A stretch of DNA of 64,000 bases. Origin: an uncultured Dehalococcoidia bacterium. GTDB lineage: Bacteria > Chloroflexota > Dehalococcoidia > Dehalococcoidales > UBA1222. The notes under the pieces were generated by a model. That model worked only from the letters and a program-made list of their open reading frames with translations, was not told the origin of the DNA and did not search any database. This document shows, piece after piece, positions 14,843-54,734 of the stretch (positions are counted from its first letter, which is position 1; every line of letters begins with the position of its first letter). The translations under genes and the position numbers were made by a program. The DNA lies in assembly GCA_903844845.1 (NCBI GenBank), contig CAIMVG010000010.1:62001-126000 (forward strand), written 5' to 3'.

Positions 14843-16168
14843 TTATTTGGATGCTGCCGCGAGTTCGTCGTTCGCCATGGACTGCAATACTGCGAGGTTC
14901 CGTAGTATTTCATACGCCCCGTGCCACTGCGAGTAGTCCGGCCCCTGCATCCAGGCCCCGAACTTGGCCGTGCGGCCGTAGTCGTGCCATATATCGAAAT
15001 AGATGAACTTGATGGGCTGGTCAAACGGCGTCGTGGTGTAAAGCCCTTTGGCTTTCAGCGGCGCGATGATAGTGTCGGCTTGCTTCAGCATGCCCGTCAC
15101 GGTAGAGGTAACCTGGTTGGCCCCGGCGTAGAAATTCGTTACGAAATCGGACGCGTGGCACTGCAGGCACACCATCTGCATCCTCGTCCCATTGGCAGCG
15201 GCGTCCGGCCTCGCGGTGGTGTACTGGGCTGCCAGAAAATTGGTCAGGCGGGCACCGACGTCATGAGACCCGGGAACATTCCCGATGGCGCTGATATGGC
15301 AAACCGCGCAGGTAGGAGCAGGCATGTCCTTGATGGTAAGGGCACCCGGTGCGGCGTTCCAGTTATAGGCCGCTCCCAGAGTGGCGTACTTGATGCCGTG
15401 AGCAGATTCCTGGAATATCTCCCACTGGGGATGGTCAGGCCCGATGTGGCAGGCGCTGCAGGTTTCGGGCTTGCGGGCCTGTTCGAGGCTGAAAGTGTGG
15501 GTCAGGTGACATGACTGGCAACGCCCTACGGACCCGTCGGCGTTCGGCTGACCTATCTGATGACAGGTATTGCATGTATAAGACAGAAGGTTGTTTCCCT
15601 CGAGGGCGGCAAGCGGATGTTCGGTCTTGCTGGGGTCGAAACCGCCTTCCGGGACGGCCTGGTACATGGCGAGTTCCGCCGGTGTCAGCGAACTCACGCC
15701 GTTCACGGCGACAAAAGCCGGAAGCGAGTGCCTGCCCTGCTGGAACTGGCTTACCTGGTCAGGATGGCATTTCTGGCAGGTCGCGGGGGTGGGAGAAACG
15801 AGCCGGTATGTGCCGAAGTGGGCCTGGGCGCCCGGGTAATCGGCAGGCACCTGGTGGCAGTCGAAGCAGGTCACCCCTTTTTGAGCCATAACGCTGGACT
15901 CGAACTGCTGTGTGATCCCCGGCGTCGACGCGTTGTGACACGCATAACAAACGTTTGATTGAAGTTTACCGGTCGTAAGGGTGATTGTGTTCGTACCCGT
16001 GGTGAAGATGTTCGTCATCGCGGAGGTTGTACCAAGCGAACTGCCGGTAGTTGTCGTTTTGCAGGCTGAAAACGACAGGGGAACGACGACTAGAGCGATC
16101 AGGCACATGAATGCCATGAACATACGGATTTCCCAGCGCGGGGCATTATTCGTATCGGACGTACGCAT
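14843..16168 (-). CDS. HAO-family octaheme c-type cytochrome, probable lipoprotein
   Basis: 441 residues starting at 16168 behind AGGAGG (an upstream codon in frame lacks a site). An N-terminal membrane helix ends near FSAC, a plausible lipobox, followed by a Thr/Gly-rich linker. Eight CxxCH haem sites occur in order: CYACH, CFDCH, CQKCH, CNTCH, CQSCH, CSACH, CAVCH and CLQCH. The spacing, the PTCAVCHISAIGN segment and C-terminal QWHGAYEILRN fit the hydroxylamine oxidoreductase/octaheme nitrite reductase-like family. Location would be the outer face of the membrane. Catalysis on hydroxylamine, nitrite or another substrate cannot be decided; haem maturation genes are not in the window. Confidence 0.85.
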   Translation of the reverse strand: MRTSDTNNAPRWEIRMFMAFMCLIALVVVPLSFSACKTTTTGSSLGTTSAMTNIFTTGTNTITLTTGKLQSNVCYACHNASTPGITQQFESSVMAQKGVTCFDCHQVPADYPGAQAHFGTYRLVSPTPATCQKCHPDQVSQFQQGRHSLPAFVAVNGVSSLTPAELAMYQAVPEGGFDPSKTEHPLAALEGNNLLSYTCNTCHQIGQPNADGSVGRCQSCHLTHTFSLEQARKPETCSACHIGPDHPQWEIFQESAHGIKYATLGAAYNWNAAPGALTIKDMPAPTCAVCHISAIGNVPGSHDVGARLTNFLAAQYTTARPDAAANGTRMQMVCLQCHASDFVTNFYAGANQVTSTVTGMLKQADTIIAPLKAKGLYTTTPFDQPIKFIYFDIWHDYGRTAKFGAWMQGPDYSQWHGAYEILRNLAVLQSMANDELAAASK

Positions 16169-16272
16169 ACCGGATCCCTCCTGTAAATTAGTTCTAACCA
16201 GATCCACGACCAGCATATTTTAGCATCTGCCGGCCGTGATTGCCCACCCGGATTTACAAAAAAAGTGAAACC

Positions 16273-18009: not shown

Positions 18010-18597
18010 ATGACTCGCGAAAGATGGATACACTACATCAAAATAGCCGGCATTTTGCTGGCAGTTGTCCTATTGAGCTTCGTTGTGGCTTACTACTTCA
18101 ACCGGCTCGTGAAAGAACTCAACCTGCCCATTTACAAGTATGCCTGGCTGGCATATGCGGTCGTTTTCGTAGTCACTCTGGTCGCCAACCTGACGGTACT
18201 TGCCCCCGTGCCCATTGCGGTGATAGTCATGACCGTCGTGGCCAAAGAATGGAATCCTGCCCTGGCAGCACTTTCCGCGGCGGCAGGGGGGACCCTGGGG
18301 GAATTGAGCGGATATTACGCCGGCTACGCCGGACGCAAGATAGCTATAACAAGTGATTTTATCGGTTTCGACCGAGTGGAAAAATGGATAAACCATTACG
18401 GGGCCTGGGCCATCGTTTTCCTGGCATTCCAGCCCCTCGTGCCTTTCGATGTGGGAGGCCTTATCGCCGGGGCTGCCAAAATGCCGATGCGCAAATTCCT
18501 GCCCGCGCTTTTTGCAGGAAAACTCCCAAAATACCTGATCATGGCTTATGCCGCAGTGGGGTTGATCCAGTTCCTGCCCAAGTCATGGTTTTCCTGA
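18010..18597 (+). CDS. VTT/DedA-type (SNARE-associated) membrane protein
   Basis: 195 residues with about five membrane segments. The central GGTLGELSGYYAGYAGRK motif and the F-x-R-x-V-E-K-W-I-x-H-Y-G segment, followed by AFQPLVPFDVGGLIAGAAKMPMRKF, are typical of DedA/TMEM41/VTT-domain proteins, which include lipid scramblases and transporters. No ribosome-binding site is visible and the promoter -10 is ten bases before the ATG, so the mRNA is probably leaderless or nearly so. It stands alone. Confidence 0.85.
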   Translation: MTRERWIHYIKIAGILLAVVLLSFVVAYYFNRLVKELNLPIYKYAWLAYAVVFVVTLVANLTVLAPVPIAVIVMTVVAKEWNPALAALSAAAGGTLGELSGYYAGYAGRKIAITSDFIGFDRVEKWINHYGAWAIVFLAFQPLVPFDVGGLIAGAAKMPMRKFLPALFAGKLPKYLIMAYAAVGLIQFLPKSWFS

Positions 18598-18672
18598 TTA
18601 TTTGTAGTCCCGCCCCCTGGTTTGGTCAATCGCTTTTAGTGCCTGCCAACCAGGCAAAACAGGACTGCGCAG

Positions 18673-18701
18673 TTGACAACACCGGAAAAGAATGGTAATG
18701 T
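18673..18701 (+). promoter_or_regulatory. Promoter of unassigned RNA
   Basis: Consensus TTGACA (18673-18678), 17-bp spacer, TAATGT (18696-18701); no coding sequence follows before the strong terminator at 19034. Confidence 0.65.
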
Positions 18702-18707
18702 GAATTG

Positions 18708-19070
18708 TTGCGCAAAATAGACAAATCGCTATACATCGGTAATCTTTTATAGGGCAGGAGGTGCCGCAAAAAGCAAAGGTAAAGACAAAACGCTACAATC
18801 TGTTGTCGTGATTACAGAATGGATGCGCGGAAGGAACACTGCCTGACAGTGTTAAAGGGTGAAAACCCGTCCGCCCAGACCGATAATATTTCAGGGGATA
18901 CAGAATCCCGGTGTCAGTGTCATCAGTCTGAAAGTCACGCGGGAAGAGAGCAGCGAAATGTTTGACCTTGGCCGCAAATCAGGTATCATGGGCAGAGATA
19001 TGAGAGTTATCGTTGGCGTCAGCCAGCGAATGGACCCGGAGTGCCAGGCGGCATCTGGGTTGTTTTTTGT
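18708..19070 (+). ncRNA. Candidate structured RNA, family not recognised
   Basis: A roughly 360-nt unit bounded by a consensus promoter and a strong intrinsic terminator, with no supportable reading frame. Local hairpins are evident: AACACTG-CCTGA-CAGTGTT, GGGT-GAAA-ACCC with a GNRA loop, GGGAT-ACAGA-ATCCC, and a longer-range CAGAC...GTCTG. Size would suit RNase P RNA, tmRNA or a large regulatory RNA, but conserved RNase P blocks, the tmRNA ends and the SRP GGAA/AGCAG apical loop are not found in order. It lies just upstream of tatA and could be a leader or an independent RNA. Confidence 0.5.
19034..19070 (+). terminator. Intrinsic terminator of unassigned RNA
   Basis: ACCCGGAGTGCC (19034-19045) pairs with GGCATCTGGGT (19050-19060) with one bulged G and one wobble, loop AGGC, followed by TGTTTTTTGTTT. 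Confidence 0.8.
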
Positions 19071-19141
19071 TTAACCGACAAATCCGTTTCATCATTGTTT
19101 CCATATAGAAATAGAGAACAAAATTAGGTAGGAGGAAAATA

Positions 19142-19339
19142 ATGCCTTTCAAACTCGGACCCATGGAGCTCGTTATCATCCTCGTCATCGTCTTCATCAT
19201 CTTCGGCGCCGGCAAACTGCCCCAGATTTTTTCGGACACGGGAAAGGCCATGCGCAATTTCCGCGAGTCACAGAAGAATGACGACGGCGAAGAAGTAGTA
19301 GTCGTCCGCCGCAAGAAAAAAACCACCAAGTCGACCTAA
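19142..19339 (+). CDS. tatA: Twin-arginine translocase subunit TatA
   Basis: 65 residues: one N-terminal membrane helix (about 8-24), the FGAGKLPQIF hinge, an amphipathic helix (GKAMRNFRESQ) and a Lys/Arg-rich tail. TatA forms the protein-conducting assembly for folded precursors. GGAGG precedes the ATG. First of a tatA-tatB-like-tatC run; the window also encodes an RR-x-FLK lipoprotein precursor at 27113 that would use it. Confidence 0.95.
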   Translation: MPFKLGPMELVIILVIVFIIFGAGKLPQIFSDTGKAMRNFRESQKNDDGEEVVVVRRKKKTTKST

Positions 19340-19368
19340 AAGCATAACCTCTAACAGGAGATAAAACC

Positions 19369-19956
19369 TTGAGTTTTCTAGGCATGGATATCGGATGGGG
19401 GGAGATCCTCATCATCCTGATCGTCGCCCTGGTGGTAGTAGGCCCTGAGAAACTGCCTTCTTACGCGCGTAAAGGCGCCCGTTTCGTGCGGAACATCCAA
19501 AAGGTGACCACCAATCTCACGGGCCAGATATCCAAGGCCATCAACCTGGACGACGAAGAGGGAGGCAAAGCCTCGGACTTTAAAAAAGACTTGATGGCGG
19601 CCAAGAAATCCCTCGAAAAGGACGTGGCCGAGCTCAAGTCCTCATTCGACGAGCAAGCCAAGACCATCTCCAAGACAATCGACGACGGCACAAAGGATGT
19701 TTCTGCGAGCCTTAAACAGAGTGCAACCGAAATATCTAGCACACTTTCCGCACAGGCGAACGAGATAAAGACCACTTTGGAAGCCCAGGGCGACGCTGTT
19801 TCCAAGACAATCGAAACCGGCGTCAAAGAAACCGCAGCCAGCATCGAACAGGCGACCGCAGAGGTTCCGGCCCCGGCCGGGGCTTCTGCTCCGCCCTCGA
19901 TGGTGCCCCCACCCCCGGCACCCGCCGTGATCCCCGGGAATGGCGACATAAACTAG
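19369..19956 (+). CDS. TatB-like (TatA/B family) protein with long coiled-coil tail
   Basis: 195 residues, TTG start with AGGAGA upstream. An N-terminal membrane helix (GWGEILIILIVALVVVGPEKLP) with the Glu typical of TatB precedes an amphipathic helix, then a long charged coiled-coil region (about 60-165) and a Pro/Ala-rich end. The GPEKLP hinge fits the TatB/TatA family. Length is well above TatA and close to TatB. It would act as the receptor with TatC. The repeated S-K-T-I-x-x-G-x-K heptad-like pattern in the tail is unusual. Confidence 0.85.
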   Translation: MSFLGMDIGWGEILIILIVALVVVGPEKLPSYARKGARFVRNIQKVTTNLTGQISKAINLDDEEGGKASDFKKDLMAAKKSLEKDVAELKSSFDEQAKTISKTIDDGTKDVSASLKQSATEISSTLSAQANEIKTTLEAQGDAVSKTIETGVKETAASIEQATAEVPAPAGASAPPSMVPPPPAPAVIPGNGDIN

Positions 19957-19970
19957 TAATCGGGTAGAAC

Positions 19971-20717
19971 ATGGTAGATGAACCTGTCGCAATAGCGGGA
20001 ATCGAAGGCCGGGCCCCTTTCATGCAGCATCTTAAAGAGCTGCGCAACCGGGTGCTTTACGCTGCGCTTTCCGTCGCAGGCGGCCTGGGCATCGGTATGA
20101 TCTTCGGAAACCGATTCATCGAACTGTTGAAAGAGCCTGCAGGCAGGATCAACCTCGTAACTCTCGACCTCATAGAACCGGTGAGCGTTTATTTCAAGGT
20201 TAGCCTGACTGCCGGGTTCATCATGGCGATGCCCTTCATCATCTACCAGATTTTTGCCTTTGTCGCACCCGGCCTGACGCCCAAAGAAAAACGCTACGTT
20301 TTCACCGTCATCCCGGCCATCACCTTCATGTTCCTGGCCGGCGTGGCTTTCGCCTATTTCGTGGCCCTCCCCCCGGCACTTGGGTTCCTCTACGGCTTCA
20401 ACGCCAACGTGGCGCAACCGCTGCCATCGCTTTCAAACTATATCGATATAGTAAGTAAGATCCTTCTAATAATCGGGATTATTTTCGAGACGCCTTTTGT
20501 CATCCTGGGGCTTGCCAGGCTTGGAGTCGTTTCACCCCAGTGGCTGGCCTCCCGCCGTAAATGGTGGATAGTGCTCGCATTTATCATAGCCGCGGTTGTA
20601 GGCCCCACACCCGACCCGGTCACCCAGACCATCCTGGCGGTGACCATGATCCTTCTTCTGGAAGTCGGCATCCTGCTGGCCCGGATAGTCTATAGAAAAC
20701 GACCGCAACCGGCGTAA
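19971..20717 (+). CDS. tatC: Twin-arginine translocase subunit TatC
   Basis: 248 residues, six membrane helices. The N-terminal MQHLKELRNRVLY motif (family HLxELRxRL), the FAFVAPGLTPKEKRY loop with conserved Pro and Glu, and the IIFETPFVILGLARLGVV helix are diagnostic. TatC binds the twin-arginine signal. It lies 14 bases after the TatB-like gene. Confidence 0.95.
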   Translation: MVDEPVAIAGIEGRAPFMQHLKELRNRVLYAALSVAGGLGIGMIFGNRFIELLKEPAGRINLVTLDLIEPVSVYFKVSLTAGFIMAMPFIIYQIFAFVAPGLTPKEKRYVFTVIPAITFMFLAGVAFAYFVALPPALGFLYGFNANVAQPLPSLSNYIDIVSKILLIIGIIFETPFVILGLARLGVVSPQWLASRRKWWIVLAFIIAAVVGPTPDPVTQTILAVTMILLLEVGILLARIVYRKRPQPA

Positions 20718-21399: not shown

Positions 21400-21783
21400 A
21401 TGACAGACAGCGATAAATCAAAAGCAGGCAGCCGCAAACCTTCACGATTCGGGAGGCATCCTCAGGCGGGGTATACCACCCAGGCAAGCGTATGGATCGA
21501 AAAAGATGGGGAGTTATATCTCGGTGGCGGCCGTGCCATGCTGCTTGAACGTCTGGAGCAGCTCGGCTCCATAGCCGCCGCTGCCCGCTCGATGGGGCTC
21601 ACTTACCGCAATGCATGGCTCTGGATAGACGCGATGAACCGCCTGGCTCCTTACCCTGTGGTTCAAAAAATAACAGGAGGCGCCGGCGGAGGGCATGCCC
21701 AGCTAACTGACGAAGGACGCAAAGCCGTAGCGGAATACAAGGAATTGCGCTCTAAACTCGCCGAACTATTTCCTGTCGACTAG
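21400..21783 (+). CDS. ModE-type winged-helix regulator, DNA-binding domain only
   Basis: 127 residues. The region LGGGRAMLLERLEQLGSIAA, then ARSMGLTYRNAWLWIDAMNR, is the LysR-like helix-turn-helix of the ModE N-terminal domain, and ITGGAGGGHAQLTDEGR is its wing. The C-terminal molybdate-binding (TOBE) domains of E. coli ModE are missing, as in many stand-alone ModE-N proteins. A dyad in its own promoter suggests autoregulation. The molybdenum genes at 45-54 kb are plausible targets, though the dyad near modB has a different sequence. No ribosome-binding site is seen before the ATG. Confidence 0.85.
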   Translation: MTDSDKSKAGSRKPSRFGRHPQAGYTTQASVWIEKDGELYLGGGRAMLLERLEQLGSIAAAARSMGLTYRNAWLWIDAMNRLAPYPVVQKITGGAGGGHAQLTDEGRKAVAEYKELRSKLAELFPVD

Positions 21784-21878: not shown

Positions 21879-21954
21879 GGGCGGTTAGCTCAGTGGTTAG
21901 AGCGCTTGCTTCACACGCAAGAAGTCAGAGGTTCAAATCCTCTACCGCCCACCA
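21879..21954 (+). tRNA. tRNA-Val (anticodon CAC)
   Basis: A full cloverleaf: acceptor GGGCGGT/ACCGCCC, anticodon stem CTTGC/GCAAG with loop TTCACAC (anticodon CAC reading GUG), T arm CAGAGG-TTCAAAT-CCTCT, and encoded CCA at 21952-21954. Confidence 0.95.
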
Positions 21955-44645: not shown

Positions 44646-45668
44646 CTACTTGCAGAAAGGACACAAGGGATAAACACAGGGCTCACAGTTCAGGCAAAGA
44701 CCACCGTGCCCGAGCTCAGCTACCTCATTCCTGGTTATCCTGTCGCCGGCCAGCATACGCGGAAAGAAAACCTCTATGACCGTGGCTTTGTTCCAGATAG
44801 CACACGCAGGCGCACCCAGGATTGGCACGCCGTCGAGGTACGCCACCAGGCACATGCTGCCCGGCATCACAGGAGCCCCGTAAGCTATAATTTCGGCTCC
44901 GGTCTGTTCCACGCCCTCTACTGTCACGTCGTCGGGATCGACCGAAAATCCCCCGCATGCGAAAATTATCTCACACCCGCGTGCTTTCATGTCCAGAATA
45001 GCGCCTGCAATCATGTTCTCATCGTCAGGGACAACGACGCTGTGTTCGATGTGGGCACCAAGTTCCTCCGCTTTGCGCTTGATAGTATCGGTAAACTTGT
45101 CCTGGATAAGGCCTTTATAAACCTCGCTGCCTGTGACCACTACTCCCACTTTCGTAAGTTTGAAAGGAAGTATCCTTAAAACCTGGTCCTGTTTCTTGCA
45201 CAAATCTTCAACTTTGCGTAAATCGGCTTCGGGTATATAAAGAGGAATGATTTTTGTCCCTGCAAGCACCATTCCTGGATGGCAAACTGTATTATTATGT
45301 CTTGTAGCAAGGACTACGCCGTCAACTGAGTTTATCTGACCGAGCAAAGGCAGATCGACCTTGAAAACGCCGTTCTTGGCTGCAACGAGGTTGATGCGTC
45401 CCTCTTTAACCCCAGACCTGTCGAACTCACCGCCAGCGAAAGCGTCGGCCAGGCGCCTGGCGGCTACTTCCTCATGGACCTCGCCGTCCTGACCTTCAGT
45501 AATAAAGACATGTTCTTTACCCATACTCAGAAGAACGGGTATGTCCTCTTTACGGATCACGTGGCCTCGCGGGAAAGCAACTTCTTTGCATTTCCCCGGA
45601 ATCACCCTGGTCATGTCGTGGCCTAACGTCAAACCGACGGCCTGTTCGACGTGTATCTTTTTCAGCAT
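44646..45668 (-). CDS. Molybdopterin-binding (MoeA/MoaB-fold) protein of Mo-hydroxylase cluster
   Basis: 340 residues. The N-terminal half (VGLTLGHDMTRVIPG, FPRGHVI) resembles the MoeA lid region; the C-terminal half is a molybdopterin-binding domain (VGVVVTGSEVYKG, CGGFSVDPDDVT, GAPVMPGSMCLVAYLDGVPI). It ends in a Cys-rich tail, CLNCEPCVYPLCPFC. Proteins of this form occur with XdhC, MocA and YqeB/YqeC in molybdenum-hydroxylase maturation loci. GGAGG precedes the ATG. Exact reaction unknown. Confidence 0.85.
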   Translation of the reverse strand: MLKKIHVEQAVGLTLGHDMTRVIPGKCKEVAFPRGHVIRKEDIPVLLSMGKEHVFITEGQDGEVHEEVAARRLADAFAGGEFDRSGVKEGRINLVAAKNGVFKVDLPLLGQINSVDGVVLATRHNNTVCHPGMVLAGTKIIPLYIPEADLRKVEDLCKKQDQVLRILPFKLTKVGVVVTGSEVYKGLIQDKFTDTIKRKAEELGAHIEHSVVVPDDENMIAGAILDMKARGCEIIFACGGFSVDPDDVTVEGVEQTGAEIIAYGAPVMPGSMCLVAYLDGVPILGAPACAIWNKATVIEVFFPRMLAGDRITRNEVAELGHGGLCLNCEPCVYPLCPFCK

Positions 45669-45727
45669 GCAGAACCTCCGGGATGCAGCAAGTGCTTTTT
45701 TATATCTGGCTATTGTTGATTTTCAGG

Positions 45728-46336
45728 CTATAAGCCTTTGAGCCGTTTTTCGTATTCTTCTTTGGTATTGATATTGACTACCACGCCTTCGCAATCTACA
45801 GGCACTTCAAGGACATCCTCGGGATGAATTTTGAGCAATTCGCGTCCGCCGATATCGCCGGTCTGAGCAAGCAATTCAGCCCGGTATTTGGTCGAAATGA
45901 TGATTGGATTCCCACGTTCGCCTTTGCAAACAGGTAATATTATGCCTTTTTCTGAGTTCAGGGCAGTTTCGATCAGCTGGTTATAAACTTTAGTCGTTAT
46001 CAGGGGCTGGTCCCCCAGCGCAATAATGATAAACCTGGCTTGCTGGTTTACCATACCAAGGCCGGTTACGAGAGAAGTGCTCATCCCTTTGGCAAAGTTC
46101 GGATTGAGAACTGAAAGGGCCCTGCGGTTGCCGATGGAAGCGTTTATCTCCTGGGCCTTGTTCCCCAGGACTACTATTACCTCACCGGCGCGCGAAGCAA
46201 GCAGACTGTCGAGCGTCCGCTGTATAACGGTTCGCCCGCCAAACGGCAGAAGCAGCTTGTTCTGCCCCATTCGCTCAGATTTTCCGGCCGCCAGTAAAAT
46301 AGCGGACACAAGGGATGTTTTGGCTTCGCTCATCAT
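45728..46336 (-). CDS. MocA-like molybdenum cofactor nucleotidyltransferase
   Basis: 202 residues. The nucleotidyltransferase signature LAAGKSERMGQNKLLLPFGG is complete (residues 16-35) and LGDQPLI carries the metal-binding Asp, with KGERGNPIIIS further on. Closest in form to MocA, which makes the cytosine-dinucleotide form of the cofactor for xanthine-dehydrogenase-type enzymes. It lies 59 bases before the molybdopterin-binding gene on the same strand. The degenerate relative fused to RelE at 53922 lacks the same key residues. Confidence 0.9.
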   Translation of the reverse strand: MMSEAKTSLVSAILLAAGKSERMGQNKLLLPFGGRTVIQRTLDSLLASRAGEVIVVLGNKAQEINASIGNRRALSVLNPNFAKGMSTSLVTGLGMVNQQARFIIIALGDQPLITTKVYNQLIETALNSEKGIILPVCKGERGNPIIISTKYRAELLAQTGDIGGRELLKIHPEDVLEVPVDCEGVVVNINTKEEYEKRLKGL

Positions 46337-46531
46337 GACTCCGGGTTTGAGAGTTTTGTTGAAGTTCGAATTGTTGGATTCAAACGACTTTATAGTATGT
46401 CATGAAAAGTGAGCAGGGTCAAACGTATCGGTACATTTCAGGCCTACATTATTTTAACAACGTTTGCGAGCTTGACTCGCCTGTGTCCCTGCTCTATGCT
46501 ATGCCCGAATTGGCCAGGGGGGAAATGCCGT

Positions 46532-46562
46532 TTTGACAACAATATTGTCAAACGTCGATAAT
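46532..46562 (+). promoter_or_regulatory. Promoter with palindromic operator upstream of tetrapyrrole methylase
   Basis: TTGACA (46533-46538), 18-bp spacer, GATAAT (46557-46562). The perfect dyad TTTGACAA-CAATA-TTGTCAAA (46532-46552) covers the -35 and spacer, so a repressor site is likely. Confidence 0.6.
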
Positions 46563-46604
46563 TCAGGCTGTGGGAATTAACCACAAGTGTCCAGGCGGAA
46601 TCAA

Positions 46605-47348
46605 ATGAACGGAACAGTTTACATCGTAGGCTTGGGCCCAGGGAGGGCCGGTTTGATCACTCCTGAAGCCCTGGCGGTTATTCAGAAAGTGCCGACGGCC
46701 ATCGGCCAGCCCGAATGCTTCAATCTGATTGAGGAACTGGTCAACGGTAAAGAGATCATCTTCGAACGCCAAAGTCCTCTTGAAGTCAGCCGGTTGGCAG
46801 TGGAAAAAGCCCTGTCGGGAAAGGATGTTGCCGTGGTGTCCTCAGGTGACCCGGGAACATTTGCCATTGCCTCGACATTCCTCGGATATATCAAGGAAAA
46901 CCACATCTCTCTTAACGCGCGCGTCATCCCAGGGCTAAACCTTGCGGGATACGCCGCTTCACTGATGGGGGCTCCGCTGGGCAATGATTGGGCCAGCATT
47001 ACCCTCACAGACCAGGGGACCCCATGGAATGTAACAAGACGCAGGCTTGAAGCTGCCGCGGAGGCGGATTTTGTCATCGTCATTTATAATCCCGTAGGCA
47101 AATTGGGACAATCCCGGTTAAAGGAAACATTCAGTGTCATTTCGGGTTTACGGACCGCCGAAACCCCCGTCGGTCTGGTCAGCCACGCGGCCTCTCCGGA
47201 TGAAAAAATCGTCCTTACCACAGTCAAGGCGATGGAGGGGGTAATCGTCCCCACCGACACTCTAGTAATAATCGGCAATTCGCAGAGTTACGTTGCCGAC
47301 GGTAAATTCAACACCCCCAGGTTTTATAAAAAAGGGACAGGATATTAA
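46605..47348 (+). CDS. cobJ: Precorrin-3B/cobalt-precorrin-3 C17-methyltransferase (CobJ/CbiH)
   Basis: 247 residues from ATG 46605 (GGCGGA upstream; an earlier GTG is possible). Tetrapyrrole methylase fold: VYIVGLGPGRAGLITPEA, VAVVSSGDPGTFAIAS, VIPGLNLAGYAASLMGAPLG (first residues) and the VIYNPVGKLGQ motif specific for CobJ/CbiH. SAM-dependent ring-contracting step of cobalamin synthesis. No other cobalamin genes flank it, so this is either a scattered pathway gene or a repurposed methylase. A palindromic promoter site precedes it. Confidence 0.85.
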   Translation: MNGTVYIVGLGPGRAGLITPEALAVIQKVPTAIGQPECFNLIEELVNGKEIIFERQSPLEVSRLAVEKALSGKDVAVVSSGDPGTFAIASTFLGYIKENHISLNARVIPGLNLAGYAASLMGAPLGNDWASITLTDQGTPWNVTRRRLEAAAEADFVIVIYNPVGKLGQSRLKETFSVISGLRTAETPVGLVSHAASPDEKIVLTTVKAMEGVIVPTDTLVIIGNSQSYVADGKFNTPRFYKKGTGY

Positions 47349-47349
47349 A

Positions 47350-47390
47350 AAAGCACCCCATCTCAAAGAGGCGGGGCGCTTTTATTTTTG
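47350..47390. terminator. Intrinsic terminator after cobJ
   Basis: AAAGCACCCC and GGGGCGCTTTT form a stem with one unpaired base, followed by ATTTTT; it separates cobJ from the convergent gene. Confidence 0.7.
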
Positions 47391-47415
47391 TTGGCGTGCC
47401 TGGTTTTAACGGGAA

Positions 47416-48666
47416 TTATCCAGTTGGTTGTGTCCCTCGGGGTTTCTCAGCTTTCACCTTTTCCGTGGCTTGCACGATGGCTTCCACAATTGGTTCAAGC
47501 TTTGTCACATCGTAACCCACGTCGAGAACATGAATCTTGTCCTGCAGTTCAGCGAGGCTCAATGCACGCGCTATCGGGGTTTCGGCCGGTGATAATGATC
47601 CCTCCATCCCTTCAGACGGGTTTGTTCCTGAGGATAAAACCACGGTACTGGCTTCCTGGGGCTTGAAGGCTTCAGGCGGCACTTTCACACGTGATACGAC
47701 GTAACTGCCAAGGCTCGGATTAAGCACCCTGTTGTGGCGTACGATATCTTCAACGCGCTTCGCGTCATACCAGTCATCTTCTTCCATAAACTCGATTATT
47801 ACATCAGGTCTTGCCAACCGGTAATAATCCGCAATCATCTTCAGGTCGTCGGGGTTCTCGTCAGTAACATGCACCATCATATCCGGCCAAAGATTTGCGT
47901 TGCCGAAGTCTTTATACGTTTGTTTCAGGTCTATCCAGTCCATCTTTTCGCTGACCAAACGGGCTTTCCACCGCGGGAGATACCACCGAAGGAGCAAACT
48001 GACGAAAGCCTGGGTACGTCCGGAATAAATCAACTGGTTTGGGACCACGAATGATGCCCGCACGAGGTTATCGAAAACAATCTTCTTGGACTCAACTACA
48101 TCCGGGACAAAATCACCTTGGTTGCTCCCGATGATGTCCCCTTCCATGGTCGGTCCCGTGTAAAAATCTTGCGTTTTCCCAGCCCACAGACGTTCCGGGG
48201 TAAGAAGATTCAGCAGGGCCAGGGATCCCCATCGTTCGTAGCCCTCGCGAAAGAGCATCTTATATGATTCCGAGATAGCGGTTTCACCAGTACGGGTGAA
48301 ACCCTCCAGATCGACTTTGCCTTTCAACAGTTCAAACAGGGGGTCGAAAATCACCCTCATCAACCCGTTAACAGGGTCAAGCAGGAACCAATTTAGGCTG
48401 GCATCGATTTCAATCGACTCAAGGTGCATCTCTTCTTTCGCGGCCTTGGCCGCTTCAGAATAGGCAACGCTGAGAACATAGCTTTTCTCGAGTTGGGAGG
48501 CGAAACGCTCTTTGACAAATCCTGCCCGCACTTTGTCGAACAAGCTATAAAATCCCGGCCTTATGTCACCCGGTATCACGATCGAAGTTGCATCGATTTC
48601 TATGCTCGGATGCGCCGTGATAAATTGTTTAAGCTCTTCGTATGAAATTTGCCAGGTTTCCACCAT
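47416..48666 (-). CDS. Hypothetical protein, 416 residues
   Basis: No family recognised. Soluble, with no signal peptide or membrane segment; the central part is rich in aromatic residues (RWYLPRWKARLVSEKMDW, GNANLWPDMMVHVTDENPDD). The C-terminal 70 residues are Ser/Pro/Glu-rich and then a short helical segment. It lies between cobJ and xdhC on the strand of the Mo-hydroxylase genes, 70 bases after xdhC, and may be cotranscribed with them. A start at the ATG 48666 has GGGAG upstream. Confidence 0.65.
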   Translation of the reverse strand: MVETWQISYEELKQFITAHPSIEIDATSIVIPGDIRPGFYSLFDKVRAGFVKERFASQLEKSYVLSVAYSEAAKAAKEEMHLESIEIDASLNWFLLDPVNGLMRVIFDPLFELLKGKVDLEGFTRTGETAISESYKMLFREGYERWGSLALLNLLTPERLWAGKTQDFYTGPTMEGDIIGSNQGDFVPDVVESKKIVFDNLVRASFVVPNQLIYSGRTQAFVSLLLRWYLPRWKARLVSEKMDWIDLKQTYKDFGNANLWPDMMVHVTDENPDDLKMIADYYRLARPDVIIEFMEEDDWYDAKRVEDIVRHNRVLNPSLGSYVVSRVKVPPEAFKPQEASTVVLSSGTNPSEGMEGSLSPAETPIARALSLAELQDKIHVLDVGYDVTKLEPIVEAIVQATEKVKAEKPRGTQPTG

Positions 48667-48736
48667 ATTTATCTCCCGAATCCCGCATCGATATTATGAT
48701 TCAAACCTTATTTTTATATAAATTTCAAATATGGGT

Positions 48737-49537
48737 TTAAATTGAAACAGATCCCGGCGACTTTTCGCCAGAAGCCCGTTTCACGGAAATCATTTCCGCC
48801 AGAATGCTGACAGCGATTTCTTCCGGAGTCTGGGCTTTGATGTTTAATCCGATGGGGGCATGCGCACGGTCAAGATCTGTTTGTTTAAATCCTTTTTCCA
48901 GCAGGTGAGCGAAAACTGCTTGATTTTTGGTTTTGCTGCCTATCATACCGATATATTTTGCTGGGGTCTTCAGAGCCCCTTCGAGAGCGGTTTCATCACC
49001 CTTGTGTCCATGGGTCACGATAACAATATAACTACCCTTCTCAATGTTAAGGCGGGCATAAGCCGGAATTATTTCAGAGACGACGACTTCGGCAGCGTCA
49101 GGGAAACGGGCTGCGGTGGCAAAATCAGGGCGCTCGTCGATAACACTGATTTTATATCCGACGATAGCCGCCATCTTTGCGAGCGGAACGGCGATGTGGC
49201 CCGCACCGAAAACAAACAGGGAAGGAGCGCCGCCTATAGGCTCTATGAATACTTCTGCGTCGCCCCCGCACAGCATGCCGAGTTCGCCGCCTTTGCTCAA
49301 CCGGTATTCGATTTTTCTAGCCTTGCCTGCACGGATGACCTCCAATGCGTCTTTAATAGCTGCTTTTTCTATGGCGCCTCCGCCGATGGTGCCCATTATG
49401 GAGCCATCCGGCTTCACGAGCATCTTGGCGCCTTCTTCCCGGGGGGTCGAACCTACCGACAAGATAAGCGTAGCCAGTGCGGCCTCCTGGCCCGCAGCAC
49501 TCAACCGCACTATTTCAGCATATATGTCGTTCTGCAT
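48737..49537 (-). CDS. XdhC/CoxI-family molybdenum-cofactor insertion protein
   Basis: 266 residues. N-terminal XdhC/CoxI domain (TLILSVGSTPREEGAKMLV, GTIGGGAIEKAA) and C-terminal Rossmann domain (LFVFGAGHIAVPLAKMA, VIDERPDFA, YIVIVTHGHKGDE, YIGMIGSKTK). XdhC chaperones the sulfurated cofactor into xanthine-dehydrogenase-type hydroxylases. GGAGG precedes the ATG. It sits in order with yqeC and yqeB fusion genes upstream. Confidence 0.9.
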   Translation of the reverse strand: MQNDIYAEIVRLSAAGQEAALATLILSVGSTPREEGAKMLVKPDGSIMGTIGGGAIEKAAIKDALEVIRAGKARKIEYRLSKGGELGMLCGGDAEVFIEPIGGAPSLFVFGAGHIAVPLAKMAAIVGYKISVIDERPDFATAARFPDAAEVVVSEIIPAYARLNIEKGSYIVIVTHGHKGDETALEGALKTPAKYIGMIGSKTKNQAVFAHLLEKGFKQTDLDRAHAPIGLNIKAQTPEEIAVSILAEMISVKRASGEKSPGSVSI

Positions 49538-49548
49538 GATTTCCTCCG

Positions 49549-50886
49549 TTATTTAATCGATTCCGTCTCAAAAACATTGTAGGCGGATTTGGAATTTTTA
49601 AGAGAGCCCGTTACAACGCGCGTTATCGATGGGTTACGCCGCGAAAGTATGGCAGCAGCCAGGTCCCGGACACCCGCACCGCCGGAGACCAGGTCTGACT
49701 TGTTGATGAAAGGGATGATGCGCGCCGACACGGGGCTGAACTGAGAGATGCCTCCCTTGGCTGTGATGAGAGTGGCCATTATTTCCGCAGTTATACATTT
49801 GCCTTCAGGTAAACCGGTCAAACGCGTGATCAATTCTGTGCGGAAGGCAACTTCACCGGACAGCTTCGTGTTCAAAGCGTCAATGCCGGCTACCCCAATT
49901 ACAAGCGTCGTTGATGACGGGATGACCGGTTCGGTAGCATTGGGGGCTTTTATGGGTTTGCGCCCGGCCCCGTCTGCTTCATTGATGATATAATCGGCGA
50001 GTTTCAGATCTGCGATTTTGTCTATCGTTTCCGGGAGCAGTCCTTTGAGCTTCCCGTCGCCCGGCCTTAAACGGGCCGCCGTCACATGCCGGTGCCGCGC
50101 GATTTTCTCTTTCAAAAGAGAAATCAAAATCTTTTCATCTTCTTCGACGATGACGCAGGGGGATTCGGATTGAGATGGTTCCATGATCCTCGTGGTGGTA
50201 GTGGTAATCACCGTTTTTCCACGCTTCTGCAATTCATCCGCCAGGTGAAACATCATCGTGGTCTTCCCGCCGCCACCTACAAGGCTGACGATCTCTGACG
50301 GACGCAGTTCGAAAGCCTCGGTCAGGCTGGAGGTTGTTTTCACCTCGGCAAGATCGGACCGTCGGGTGATCAGGATCCATACCCCGCCTTCTTCGGTTAT
50401 CAAGGATTTATTTTCAAGCCCATTGGCTTTGAGCATGTCCTTAAGAAAGCTGATTTCGACTCTTCGCCTGCCCAACCGGTCATTCAAAACACGGGATTCC
50501 TCAGCGATACCTTCGATAACGCTGTTCGGAATGCCCTTTCCGTAGCCCCCGCCGACAAAAGCAAAACCGCCGGGTGCGAGGATGCGGTTGATTTCAGACA
50601 AGATACGCGGCTTGTCTACCAGAAAAAAGAAGGCGCCCCTCAGGATGACCAGGTCAAAGCTGTCATCTCCGAATGGCGGATTGTCCATCGACGCGTCGAC
50701 AATCTCAAAACGAGCACTCAGTCCTCGCTTGCCTATCTCTTCGTTCAGGACATCCAGGTACGCCCCGTTGTCGTCGGCCAGTGTGAATTCCAAGGCCGGA
50801 TAACGGTCCGCCAGGTCAAAGGAGATGCCACCAGAAAATGGCCCCAGTTCCAGCACTCTGCCGTAAGTTCGCCCGTACCCCTCCAT
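49549..50886 (-). CDS. SAM-methyltransferase fused to YqeC-type selenium-dependent hydroxylase accessory protein
   Basis: 445 residues from the first ATG. Residues 1-175 are a class-I methyltransferase (RVLELGPFSGGISFDLADRY, DSFDLVILRGAFFFL, LAPGGFAFVGG). Residues about 190-445 are YqeC-like (LVGGGGKTTMMFHLADEL P-loop, TTTTTRI, NEADGAGRKPIKAP, GVAGIDAL). The protein-like frame extends 24 codons upstream (DIQDLKAVNDLWRDVYPYLA) to an ATA at 50958 preceded by GGAG; there is no ATG, GTG or TTG in that stretch. YqeC occurs in labile-selenium molybdenum hydroxylase systems; the methyltransferase fusion is unusual. Confidence 0.85.
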   Translation of the reverse strand: MEGYGRTYGRVLELGPFSGGISFDLADRYPALEFTLADDNGAYLDVLNEEIGKRGLSARFEIVDASMDNPPFGDDSFDLVILRGAFFFLVDKPRILSEINRILAPGGFAFVGGGYGKGIPNSVIEGIAEESRVLNDRLGRRRVEISFLKDMLKANGLENKSLITEEGGVWILITRRSDLAEVKTTSSLTEAFELRPSEIVSLVGGGGKTTMMFHLADELQKRGKTVITTTTTRIMEPSQSESPCVIVEEDEKILISLLKEKIARHRHVTAARLRPGDGKLKGLLPETIDKIADLKLADYIINEADGAGRKPIKAPNATEPVIPSSTTLVIGVAGIDALNTKLSGEVAFRTELITRLTGLPEGKCITAEIMATLITAKGGISQFSPVSARIIPFINKSDLVSGGAGVRDLAAAILSRRNPSITRVVTGSLKNSKSAYNVFETESIK

Positions 50887-50970
50887 GATCTGCGAAGCCA
50901 GATAAGGATAAACATCCCGCCAGAGGTCATTTACTGCCTTTAAATCCTGAATATCTATGCCGGTTCTCCG

Positions 50971-51771
50971 TTAAATATTGAAATGGTCCAATATAGCTTC
51001 GAGTACACCGCCCGAGATAGTGCGTCCCTTGTCCGAAATCGTGAAACAGTATTCCTTGTTCCCGCGGGGATCCACGTCGCCCGCTTTGAGGCCCCTGGTG
51101 ACGGGGGTCCCGTCCCGCAGAAGGCCGCGCACGATTCCGGGAATAACGGTTTTCACAGGTTCTTTCCCGACGAAAGCGACCGTGTCGCCCGCCTTTACCA
51201 TGTCACCGATCTTCTTGACGGTTTTAATAGTCCCGTCAGCCGGCGCACGCATGACACGTTCAGTGGTGAATCCCCCGATGTTGCCGGGGTTGCCGGTATC
51301 GGCTTCGGCGATGCCTTTACGTATCACCCTGCCGAGATTATGCCCGCGGTTAGTTTCGATAACGACATGCACATCCTTGCCGGCTTCAAACCCGATGCCC
51401 AGCCCGATGACCAGTTCCGCATCAGTTATTTTGGTGCCCAGGTTCTTTTTTGCGATTATGGCATCGATCTCTATGTCGGGCTTGATATCGGAAAGGATAG
51501 TGACGTCAGGGTCCACGATGAGCGCAAGCTGCCCTGCTTTCCACGCGGCCCGCGTTTCACCGGCAGAAGAAACCAGCCGGGCGGTTTTGCCCTCAACCGT
51601 CTTCGTGCCTTCGTAAACCGCTTCGCAGAAAGACACATTGCGCCGGACGGCCTGGGGTTTTGAGACCTCGGTCATAATGACTTTGAAATGGCTGTCGGCG
51701 AGACGGCAGGCCATCGCGGTTGCGAGTTCACCGCCGCCCCTGATCAGCACTTTCAGATTTTTAACTGGCAT
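50971..51771 (-). CDS. yqeB: YqeB-type (EF2563 family) selenium-dependent molybdenum hydroxylase system protein
   Basis: 266 residues: LIRGGGELATAMACRLADSH, EVSKPQAVRRNVSFCEAVYEG (motif split), DPDVTILSDIKPDIEIDAII, AELVIGLGIGFEAGKDVHVV, NRGHNLGRVI. The family is found by genome comparison with SelD, YqeC and selenium-dependent xanthine-dehydrogenase-type enzymes; its reaction is unknown. Together with yqeC, xdhC and mocA-like genes it shows that this organism likely makes labile-selenium molybdenum hydroxylases. The hydroxylase structural genes are not in the window. Confidence 0.9.
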   Translation of the reverse strand: MPVKNLKVLIRGGGELATAMACRLADSHFKVIMTEVSKPQAVRRNVSFCEAVYEGTKTVEGKTARLVSSAGETRAAWKAGQLALIVDPDVTILSDIKPDIEIDAIIAKKNLGTKITDAELVIGLGIGFEAGKDVHVVIETNRGHNLGRVIRKGIAEADTGNPGNIGGFTTERVMRAPADGTIKTVKKIGDMVKAGDTVAFVGKEPVKTVIPGIVRGLLRDGTPVTRGLKAGDVDPRGNKEYCFTISDKGRTISGGVLEAILDHFNI

Positions 51772-51803
51772 ATTTTTCTCCTAGTCTTTAGTAAATCCTG
51801 GAT

Positions 51804-52892
51804 CTATCCGTTTGCGGCCGGGATGACGATAAGGTTTTCCGGCGGAAAATGGAGCAGGCAGGTTTGCCCGTCCTCAAAACAGAGCGCGTTCGATTTTGAA
51901 ATCGTGGCGTTGATATAATGCTTCGCCTGCTGGTCGGACTGCACGTGGAAGCGATACGTAACGCTTGATATCCCTTCCACAGCCTGAAGTATGCGGCTGG
52001 GGAAAACATTCTCGCCTTCGGCTTGTTTCAGGTCGACGTATTCCGGGCGGATGCCCACTGTCACTTTCTGACCGGGAACCAACCCTGCGTCCGGGCTGGA
52101 CAACGCTTTCAACGGAACGTCCCAGGCGACGATATTGATCCAGGCGAAAGGCCCGTCGAGCCGCGTTACTATCCCGTCCATCAGGTTCCGGACCCCCGTC
52201 AGGCGGGCCACGGTGCGGTTTACCGGCGAGGCGAATACCTTATGCCTGGTATCGCACTGGGCGATGCGCCCCGCCTGGTAAATGGCTATCTGAGAACCAA
52301 GTTTATATCCCTCGGCCAGGTCATGCGTCACGAGGATCATGCTGCCGTGGTATTCCGTCTGCAGGGCCAATAATTCGAGTTCGAGGCGCTCTTTGAGCTG
52401 TGAATCGAGAGCGGAGAAAGGTTCGTCCAGCAGGAGCACTTCGGGGTCGGGGGCCAGCGCACGGGCGATCGCCACCCGCTGCTGCTGTCCTGCGGAAAGC
52501 TGCCTGGGATAACGATCTGTCAGCGGAATGATGTTCATGATATTCATGAGCCGTTCCACCTTGAGGTTCACTTCGTTTACCGGAAGGTGCCGGATACTGT
52601 AAGCCACGTTTTCCATAACCGTCATGTGGGGGAAAAGGGCGTAATTCTGAAATACGAATCCCACTTTTCGCTTCTGGGGGGGCAGGTTTATACCCGCTTC
52701 CGAATCGTAGAGCACTTTACCGTTGAGTTCGATACGCCCTTCATCCGGTTTGGTAAGACCGGCGATGCATTGCAGTGTCATGGTTTTCCCGGACCCGGAA
52801 GGCCCCAGCACTGCCAGCAGTTCACGGTTGACCGAGAAATCGACGTTGAGATCGAACCCCGGCAAAGACCTTTTGATAACAGCTTTAAGCAT
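51804..52892 (-). CDS. modC: Molybdate/tungstate ABC transporter ATP-binding protein ModC-like
   Basis: 362 residues. Walker A GPSGSGKTM (about 33), signature LSAGQQQRVAIARAL, Walker B LLLDEPFSALD, H-loop VTHDLAEGYKLG, then a C-terminal MOP/TOBE-like region (VGIRPEYVDL, AVEGISSVTYRFHV). It overlaps the mod permease region closely (18-base gap). Order minus strand: modB, modC, yqeB, yqeC fusion, xdhC. No substrate-binding ModA/WtpA is present beside it. Confidence 0.9.
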   Translation of the reverse strand: MLKAVIKRSLPGFDLNVDFSVNRELLAVLGPSGSGKTMTLQCIAGLTKPDEGRIELNGKVLYDSEAGINLPPQKRKVGFVFQNYALFPHMTVMENVAYSIRHLPVNEVNLKVERLMNIMNIIPLTDRYPRQLSAGQQQRVAIARALAPDPEVLLLDEPFSALDSQLKERLELELLALQTEYHGSMILVTHDLAEGYKLGSQIAIYQAGRIAQCDTRHKVFASPVNRTVARLTGVRNLMDGIVTRLDGPFAWINIVAWDVPLKALSSPDAGLVPGQKVTVGIRPEYVDLKQAEGENVFPSRILQAVEGISSVTYRFHVQSDQQAKHYINATISKSNALCFEDGQTCLLHFPPENLIVIPAANG

Positions 52893-52910
52893 GGGCGTTC
52901 GATAACTCCG

Positions 52911-53597
52911 TCACGTGATGAGGAAACCCTTGGACCTCGGAGTGCGGCCTTTCCAGTAGGCTATGGCTGCCAGGGCGGCAAACGAGATGACCAGCACGAT
53001 GCCGACCAGTACGAGGGCCTGGGATTTTTCCCCGGCCTGGATATCGAAATAGATGGCCACCGGAATGGTCGCGGTCCTTCCCGGGATATTGCCCGCAAGC
53101 ATCAATGTGGCGCCGAATTCGCCGAGAGACCGGGCGAGGGCCAATACGGTGCCTGCGGCGACGCCCGGCCATGCGAGAGGCAGGGTCACGGTCCAAAAGA
53201 CCCGCCATTCGCTGGCCCCGAGGGTGCGGGCGGCATCCTGGATATTGGGTTCAACCTGTTCGAAGGCGCCCCTCGCCGTGATGTACATCAGGGGGAAAGC
53301 CATTACCACGGCGGCTATGACGGTCGCCCACCAGGAAAAAACTATCGTCGTTCCGAAATGGAGGAGCATCTTACCGAGCGGGCCGTTCTTGCCGAACAGC
53401 AGCAGCAGGCCGTAACCGACCACGGTAGGGGGCAAGACCATCGGCATGATGAAAAGCCCGTCAATGACGCTCTTCAGGCGGCCCGAATAACGCGCCATCC
53501 AGCGGGCGGCGGCGATGCCGACAAAAAAAGTGACGAAAGTAGCCACCAGGACTGTTCGCAGCGAGATCCAGAGCGGCGCCAGATAAAGGTCGGTCAT
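52911..53597 (-). CDS. modB: Molybdate/tungstate ABC transporter permease ModB-like
   Basis: 228 residues, five to six membrane helices with the ABC permease EAA loop at ARTLGASEWRVFWTVTLPLA and the ModB/WtpB-type VLPPTVVGYGLLLLFGKNG segment. AAGGAG lies further than usual from the ATG at 53597. Upstream are an AACGATAA/TTATCGTT dyad and a long structured element. Delivers oxyanion for the Mo-hydroxylase cofactor made by the following genes. Confidence 0.9.
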   Translation of the reverse strand: MTDLYLAPLWISLRTVLVATFVTFFVGIAAARWMARYSGRLKSVIDGLFIMPMVLPPTVVGYGLLLLFGKNGPLGKMLLHFGTTIVFSWWATVIAAVVMAFPLMYITARGAFEQVEPNIQDAARTLGASEWRVFWTVTLPLAWPGVAAGTVLALARSLGEFGATLMLAGNIPGRTATIPVAIYFDIQAGEKSQALVLVGIVLVISFAALAAIAYWKGRTPRSKGFLIT

Positions 53598-53699
53598 CGG
53601 TCTAAAACGGCTCTCCTTAGATAACTCAAAGCGACATTCGCCAATATCATTTCGACACTATAAAAAAGAAACCTGAAACAAGTATTTCTATATTTATGA

Positions 53700-53724
53700 G
53701 AACGATAATCAGTGCTTATCGTTC
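53700..53724 (-). promoter_or_regulatory. Dyad operator candidate upstream of modB
   Basis: GAACGATAA-TCAGTGC-TTATCGTTC: 9-bp perfect arms, 7-base spacer, about 100 bases before modB. The form recalls ModE boxes (palindromic, A/T-rich with CG), but does not match the dyad near the ModE-type gene at 21353. Confidence 0.5.
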
Positions 53725-53738
53725 CCCCTGACATGAGT

Positions 53739-53759
53739 AAAGCCGCTTGCAGCGGCTTT
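53739..53759. terminator. Terminator-like hairpin in modB leader
   Basis: AAAGCCGC-TTGCA-GCGGCTTT, without a strong T tract on the minus strand, between the structured element and the dyad. Confidence 0.4.
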
Positions 53760-53787
53760 CTTCCGGGATATTGTAAACCTTTTTAAC

Positions 53788-53921
53788 ATTGTCCGGTAGA
53801 TCCTGCCGCTCGCCCGATTACATCCAGGGCAACACACGGGAGGGGGAGGCTAATCTTTAAGTCGGGGCTGGCTGACCTCGACACCCTGGTTTCCCCCGGC
53901 AGGACCTACCGTCGGAACAAT
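53788..53921 (-). promoter_or_regulatory. Long imperfect inverted repeat, predicted structured RNA before modB
   Basis: The two ends (53788-53808 and 53897-53921) pair over about 20 bp, CGGTAGATCCTGCCG with CGGCAGGACCTACCG plus an ATTGT/ACAAT closing part. Inside, CCAGGG pairs with CCCTGG and GTCGGGG with CCTCGAC. The element begins directly at the stop of the RelE-MobA-like gene and would be the leader of modBC on the minus strand. Moco or tungsten-cofactor riboswitches occupy such sites, but I could not match their consensus; orientation is inferred. Confidence 0.5.
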
Positions 53922-54734
53922 CTAATTAAGCCAGGTGCGCTCCAGCACACCGGCGTCGCCCACATCGACCTCGGTCAGCTCCTTGAAATGATGTTTTATC
54001 ACGTCCCTGCCGCCCGCGTTGCCGCGGACCTTGAGCAATTCGGGAAGCAGCTTGGCGTCAAATATAACGGGATGCCCGCGCATCTGGGAATAAGAGGGCA
54101 CGACCACTTTGGAACCGCCTTCGCGGTAGGCTTTTATCAAAGCGGATATCACTTCGCGTGAAACGAACGGCCGGTTTCCCAGCGACAGCATGACGGCGCT
54201 TGTCACCGACTGAAGCATCTTGAGACCCCCGCGCAGGGACTTGCTCAAGCCTTCGCTGAAATCATTGTTCACCACGATAGTCACATTCTTGCGGCTGAGC
54301 TCTTCGCGGGCCTGTTCGGCGTGGTCTCCTACCACGATAATCAGGTCGTCGACGCCGGATGCAAGAAAGGTATCGGCCAGGGAAGAGAACGGCATCGTAT
54401 CCGCATAGGCTGTGCGCCCCGCAGCCAGCACCAGGGCGGATATATGGGGATGGGAATCGATGACCGGAACGGGGACTTGCAGGGAATTCACGCCCAGGAC
54501 CTGTATCTCGGTCGCAGAAACACGGTAGACGATCCTCGCATCGGTCATCGTCTGGTAAAGAAGGATATCGTCCCGGCCCCATAATTTGAGTCCCAATCCG
54601 GGAGCCGACTGCAATTTTTCGAGGCTCTTGCGGACGAACCCGGCTTCGAATTCCCCGATATTCGCGATATCGGCGGCTGCCTGGGGGGTAAGCATAAGCT
54701 TATACATGGGAACGTTTGGCTCCGTTAACTTCAA
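53922..54734 (-). CDS. RelE/ParE-type toxin domain fused to degenerate MobA-like nucleotidyltransferase
   Basis: 270 residues. Residues about 10-88 follow the RelE/ParE fold (MYKLMLTPQAAADIANIGEF, LEKLQSAPGLGLKLWG, DARIVYRVSATEIQVL). Residues about 95-270 resemble MobA/MocA transferases (ALVLAAGRTAYADTMPFSSL, DDLIIVVGDHAEQ, EGLSKSLRGGLKML, GHPVIFDAKLLPELL, GGRDVIKHH). The RMG-x-x-K nucleotide motif is absent and the metal Asp of GDxP is Asn in LGNRPFV, so catalysis is doubtful. The antitoxin gene upstream overlaps it by 35 bases. A molybdenum-cofactor-sensing toxin is one hypothesis. Confidence 0.8.
   Translation of the reverse strand: MKLTEPNVPMYKLMLTPQAAADIANIGEFEAGFVRKSLEKLQSAPGLGLKLWGRDDILLYQTMTDARIVYRVSATEIQVLGVNSLQVPVPVIDSHPHISALVLAAGRTAYADTMPFSSLADTFLASGVDDLIIVVGDHAEQAREELSRKNVTIVVNNDFSEGLSKSLRGGLKMLQSVTSAVMLSLGNRPFVSREVISALIKAYREGGSKVVVPSYSQMRGHPVIFDAKLLPELLKVRGNAGGRDVIKHHFKELTEVDVGDAGVLERTWLN

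Follow-up and report, generated by a model that had tools for sequence, protein, structure and literature searches.

The window (the whole stretch of 64,000 nucleotides analysed here) comes from contig 10 of the Dehalococcoidales genome G000, an uncultured Dehalococcoidia. A dedA-type gene is separated in it from the tatA-tatB-tatC genes (19142–20717) by a gap of 544 bases, which holds the leader of the tat operon. The order is dedA, structured element, 38-codon ORF, terminator, tatA (of the tatA2 type), tatB and tatC, with the following features:

18010–18597, plus strand: dedA-type (VTT domain) gene (PF09335, 61.8 bits), syntenic with G004, G007 and G008
18673–19141, plus strand: leader of the tatA-tatB-tatC operon, between dedA and tatA
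18673–18701, plus strand: putative promoter, TTGACA (18673–18678), 17-base spacer, TAATGT (18696–18701); matching layout in relatives, TTGACA-N17-TATnTT
18702–18826, plus strand: lineage-specific 5' part of the leader, with no conservation detectable by DNA search of relatives or by alignment
18827–18874, plus strand: three-way junction P1-P3, with compensatory changes in seven sequences
18876–18930, plus strand: second domain, a variable P4 enclosing hairpin P5, which is identical in seven of seven copies
18941–18948, plus strand: SD-like GGGAAGAG before the short ORF, at the position of the tatA SD in relatives
18958–19074, plus strand: 38-codon ORF MFDLGRKSGIMGRDMRVIVGVSQRMDPECQAASGLFFV, starting where tatA1 does in relatives
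19033–19068, plus strand: intrinsic terminator between leader and tatA, a hairpin of −18.3 kcal/mol (19033–19061, 12-pair stem with one bulged base) followed by TGTTTTTTG
19142–19339, plus strand: tatA, tatA2 type (PF02416, 53.2 bits), nearest to the second tatA of G001
19369–19956, plus strand: tatB (PF02416, 31.7 bits)
19971–20717, plus strand: tatC (PF00902, 208.6 bits)

Some neighbouring genes are worth recording. Many CxxCH motifs mark a multihaem cytochrome-like protein encoded on the minus strand at 14843–16216, within a few kilobases of the tat operon. A ModE-like regulator lies near the operon (21400–21783), and a molybdenum-related cluster at 44646–54734 encodes, as judged from translations only, molybdate-type ABC transporter, MocA-like, XdhC-like and MoeA-like proteins. 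Together, the cluster and the regulator suggest a molybdoenzyme-rich organism.

The unit of about 360 bases upstream of tatA is composite, made of the lineage-specific 5' part, a conserved element of about 105 bases, the short ORF and the terminator. The sequence-only reading had described it as an RNA gene with a consensus promoter, several hairpins including a GNRA loop, no coding frame and a strong terminator. The terminator is as described. For the promoter, TTGACA and the 17-base spacer stand, but the −10 sequence TAATGT is poor and was missed by a consensus scan; the promoter is nevertheless believable, because relatives carry TTGACA-17-TATnTT at the equivalent place. The absence of a coding frame did not hold, given the 38-codon ORF and its SD-like sequence.

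The same reading had seen no signature of a known RNA family, and the Rfam search that it proposed gave the same answer. At the gathering score, Rfam 15 found only a tRNA in the window and no family matching the element. At E≤10, the interval 18400–19400 gave three sub-threshold eukaryotic or snoRNA chance matches, none of them credible, and six related loci had no match at E≤3. A search of the window for tmRNA and tRNA with ARAGORN returned only tRNA-Val at 21879. No match at the element was obtained with the RNase P and tmRNA models (RF00010, RF00011, RF00023), nor with the SRP and 6S models in the Rfam search. Other contigs of G000 carry the genes for RNase P RNA and tmRNA, which score 303.7 and 153.5 bits respectively; these high scores elsewhere, with the lack of an Rfam match here, exclude an RNase P RNA or tmRNA identity. 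The suggestion of a divergent housekeeping RNA (RNase P, tmRNA, SRP or 6S) was thus not borne out: size and fold only speak for it, whereas G000 has two copies of the element, each before a tat operon, and we give it practically no chance.

Folding energies agree with the hairpins claimed. A stretch of 374 nt folds at −122.4 kcal/mol (z −3.2; one of 100 shuffles was equally good), and the core alone (18823–18932) at −38.7 kcal/mol (z −3.1; none of 200 shuffles as good). The core (18827–18930) consists of a three-way junction followed by a second domain. In the junction, P1 pairs 18827–18831 with 18870–18874, P2 pairs 18835–18841 with 18847–18853, and P3 pairs 18857–18860 with 18865–18868, the joining bases being AGG, AAA and G. 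The GNRA loop is the GAAA (18861–18864) that caps P3, though it is not conserved, relatives having TAAT, ATGA, ATAT or TAGT instead. In the second domain, P4 (18876–18880 with 18926–18930) encloses P5 (18895–18899 with 18905–18909), which reads GGGAU-ACAGA-AUCCC here and GGGAU-AYNGM-AUCCC across copies. The common core sequence can be written GCGGA-AGG-(GACACUG...CAGUGUC)-AAA-(GGGU...ACCC)-G-UCCGC, then the P4 stem around GGGAU-AYNGM-AUCCC.

A DNA search of 60 relatives gave matches confined to about 18824–18875, in three genomes, together with a short match on another contig of G000 and one chance match in G043. Inspection of the matched places revealed the element immediately 5' of tatA in G003, G008 and G009, then in G007, and a divergent copy before a second tat operon of G000. 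The four relatives share one arrangement: a promoter comes first, then the element, an SD and tatA, followed by a terminator-like hairpin, some 250 bases, tatB and tatC. RNAalifold applied to these four copies and that of the window yielded P1-P5 with compensatory changes, and a covariance model, R1, was built from the five. Across the 156 genomes available for the order, R1 recovered its five source copies and detected two on which it had not been trained. The first, in G004, which belongs to another genus, precedes tatA1 (53.9 bits, E 1.9e-11), in the order dedA, element, tatA1, tatA2; tatB and tatC are on another contig starting with tatA2. The second is the divergent copy heading the second tat operon, on contig 15 of G000 (30.7 bits, E 5.7e-5), composed of a small ORF, tatC, tatA, tatB and tatC. 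Counting the window's own copy, G000 has only two R1 matches at E≤0.1, and both precede tat operons.

Several features of these operons were noted in passing. The second operon of G000 (L076, L057) has two tatC genes, and its small ORF (MLRVLGQWIDSLLFTGIIITILLELSG...) has a likely membrane helix at its start and no Pfam match. Between tatA and tatB of G003, G008, G009 and G007 (L081-L084), where some 250 bases are non-coding, a strong terminator-like hairpin immediately follows tatA, and is possibly a means of making TatA in excess. On contig 27 of G001 (L085), two tandem tatA genes occur without the RNA element.

The covariation check on related genomes, also proposed by the sequence-only reading, was positive, within a sample of only seven copies from six genomes, mostly incomplete or fragmented MAGs. 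Compensatory (double) changes affect 11 of the 26 pairs, versus 3.4 expected by shuffling, and none of 500 shuffles reached 11. Over the seven sequences 96.6% of cells are paired, a value also reached by none of 500 shuffles, and shifting the structure by one to three columns destroyed the signal. By helix, compensatory pairs number 3/5 in P1, 4/7 in P2 and 2/4 in P3, with 100% of the P1-P3 cells paired. A plain MAFFT alignment, fitted neither to the structure nor to the model, reproduced P1-P3 and P5 and contained 12 compensatory pairs, nine of them within P1-P3. P5 brings no covariation evidence, because it never varies. P4 is less regular than the other helices: it is only 82% paired in the seven-sequence alignment, shifts position and differs in sequence (GGCUC/GAGCC, AGGC/GCCU or GGAAC/GUUCC, and CAGAC/GUCUG here). 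Folded singly, five copies adopt the consensus fold, the copy of the second operon a variant with P1 extended, and the G007 copy a partly different fold without P1.

The distribution of the element is narrow. It is present in six of ten genomes of one Dehalococcoidales family, in three of its five genera. In G001, which is of the same genus, a tat operon is present without the element, which is therefore dispensable. Models R1 and R2 gave nothing credible in other families of the order, complete single-contig genomes included, and nothing credible among 393 genomes of the class and 400 of the phylum (overlapping samples), a search in which a limited number of candidates were scored per genome and weak relatives could be missed. 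Weak matches were discarded as chance: the G014 and G046 matches fall within or across long ORFs, G456 and G460 gave matches inside such ORFs or antisense to them, and the weak one of G048 lacks a matching core.

All seven confident copies precede tat operons, a link to one gene class of the kind found for riboswitches. P5 and the ATG that follows it are 57–69 bases apart in every copy: 57–64 for the tatA of relatives, 63 for the short ORF of the window and 69 for the small ORF of the second operon. By this distance, the start of the 38-codon ORF corresponds to that of the relatives' tatA. The ORF has no Pfam match, and no similarity to tatA1 reaches significance (best p = 0.06, for G008); its position and the terminator after it fit an origin as a tatA1 relic. 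It may be either such a relic or a leader peptide. The terminator of the window occupies the spot of the relatives' post-tatA terminator-like hairpin, and the first position seems to have lost its tatA1. What had been called an RNA gene is best seen, from these comparisons, as a tat leader in which the first cistron would have been replaced by a short ORF.

The term RNA gene does not fit the relatives, where the element belongs to the tat operon 5' leader and no terminator separates it from tatA. In the window, the promoter at 18673 and the strong terminator at 19033–19068 do delimit a transcript of about 370 nt, which could be a stand-alone small RNA acting in trans. However, its 5' part is not conserved, in the relatives' copies the element is followed by the next ORF without a terminator in between, and a start codon is kept at equal spacing, all of which make such an RNA very unlikely. 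The proposal of a novel RNA stood in part: the structure is conserved and covarying and has no Rfam family, but it is a tat operon leader rather than a gene standing alone.

We consider it likely that the element is a cis-acting regulatory RNA, hereafter the "tat-leader motif", of tat operon 5' leaders in one Dehalococcoidales family. Action in cis is supported by its place, its spacing and its exclusive association with tat operons. By binding a small molecule, an ion or a protein, or by changing conformation, the folded element would set ribosome access to the first cistron, tatA, or the stability of that cistron, so that the amount of Tat translocase made is adjusted. Control at the level of translation or mRNA stability is favoured over attenuation as the putative ancestral mode, because relatives have no terminator before tatA and the start-codon spacing is constant. 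In the window, with its terminator after the element, attenuation is also possible, and the output may there be an attenuated transcript of about 370 nt plus read-through into tatA2BC. For neither terminator arm does the window hold an upstream segment whose pairing clearly beats that of shuffles, as an antiterminator's should.

A possible switch would have the 3' strand of P5, AUCCC, either held in P5 or paired with the GGGA or GGGGAU of the SD. GGGA occurs within 25 bases 5' of the ATG in five of seven copies, versus 8 of the window's 53 long ORFs. The pairing is feasible in some copies only, G004 and G007 being without GGGA, so that SD sequestration by P5 is suggestive, not consistent.

Since the element adjoins the SD at a fixed spacing, it might instead be a constitutive 5'-UTR element that senses nothing, and that stabilises the tatA mRNA or keeps the SD open so that TatA is abundant. 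The hairpin after tatA in relatives also suggests an operon built for an excess of TatA over TatB and TatC. Two folded domains, an invariant hairpin and conserved joining bases (A, G) nevertheless exceed what a stabilising hairpin needs, and we regard this explanation as unlikely. Several GGA or GGG stretches near the SD could point to a protein-binding leader, for example a CsrA target or a leader under autogenous control by a Tat protein or a ribosomal protein. CsrA was tried as a candidate and is unlikely, because csrA was found in none of six genomes of the family, by a search that detects CsrA of E. coli, B. subtilis and T. maritima; protein-binding leaders as a whole seem rather improbable.

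The preferred reading, a cis-acting regulatory leader, places the element beside riboswitches and similar leaders. It shares with them an aptamer-like, covarying fold in a 5' leader, conserved joining bases, an invariant hairpin, and a fixed place beside the SD and start codon of one kind of operon. It differs from them in having no Rfam family or known ligand, and in that its target is machinery for protein export, not a gene of metabolism or transport. A more specific version, possible but less probable than not, is that of a new riboswitch class which would sense a metabolite or cofactor that Tat-exported redox enzymes need and tune the number of Tat translocases. To our knowledge, an RNA sensor governing a protein-export machine has no precedent.

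Reductive dehalogenases are typical Tat substrates. In theme, the closest published counterpart is the rdhA motif (WRC-34-1) of Dehalococcoides, a candidate leader RNA upstream of a reductive dehalogenase gene (PMC11109978). It belongs to the same bacterial class and shares the Tat-substrate theme but, going by its description, precedes a gene other than the tatA found here, and in other genomes. Chloroflexi-1 RNA (RF01698), described from Chloroflexus aggregans (PMC2864571), is likewise a structured RNA candidate of the same phylum, but its model matched nothing in the window at the gathering score and nothing near the element at E≤10. For an RNA leader of tat genes, nothing relevant was found in the open-licence literature. 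As no Rfam family or paper found describes a tat leader, we put the element forward as a candidate for a new family within the structured regulatory leader RNAs, one that is narrowly distributed and, on sequence comparison, well supported. It probably serves as an RNA control on protein export that has not been described before.

Beyond a few model bacteria, it is poorly understood how cells set their Tat translocase level and the TatA:TatB:TatC ratio. Close relatives of this lineage respire via Tat-exported enzymes. The tat-leader motif is a further candidate family of structured RNAs, whose core is short and testable and whose association with particular genes is defined, and a compact conserved RNA before tatA would give a direct handle on both the amount of translocase and the ratio of its components.
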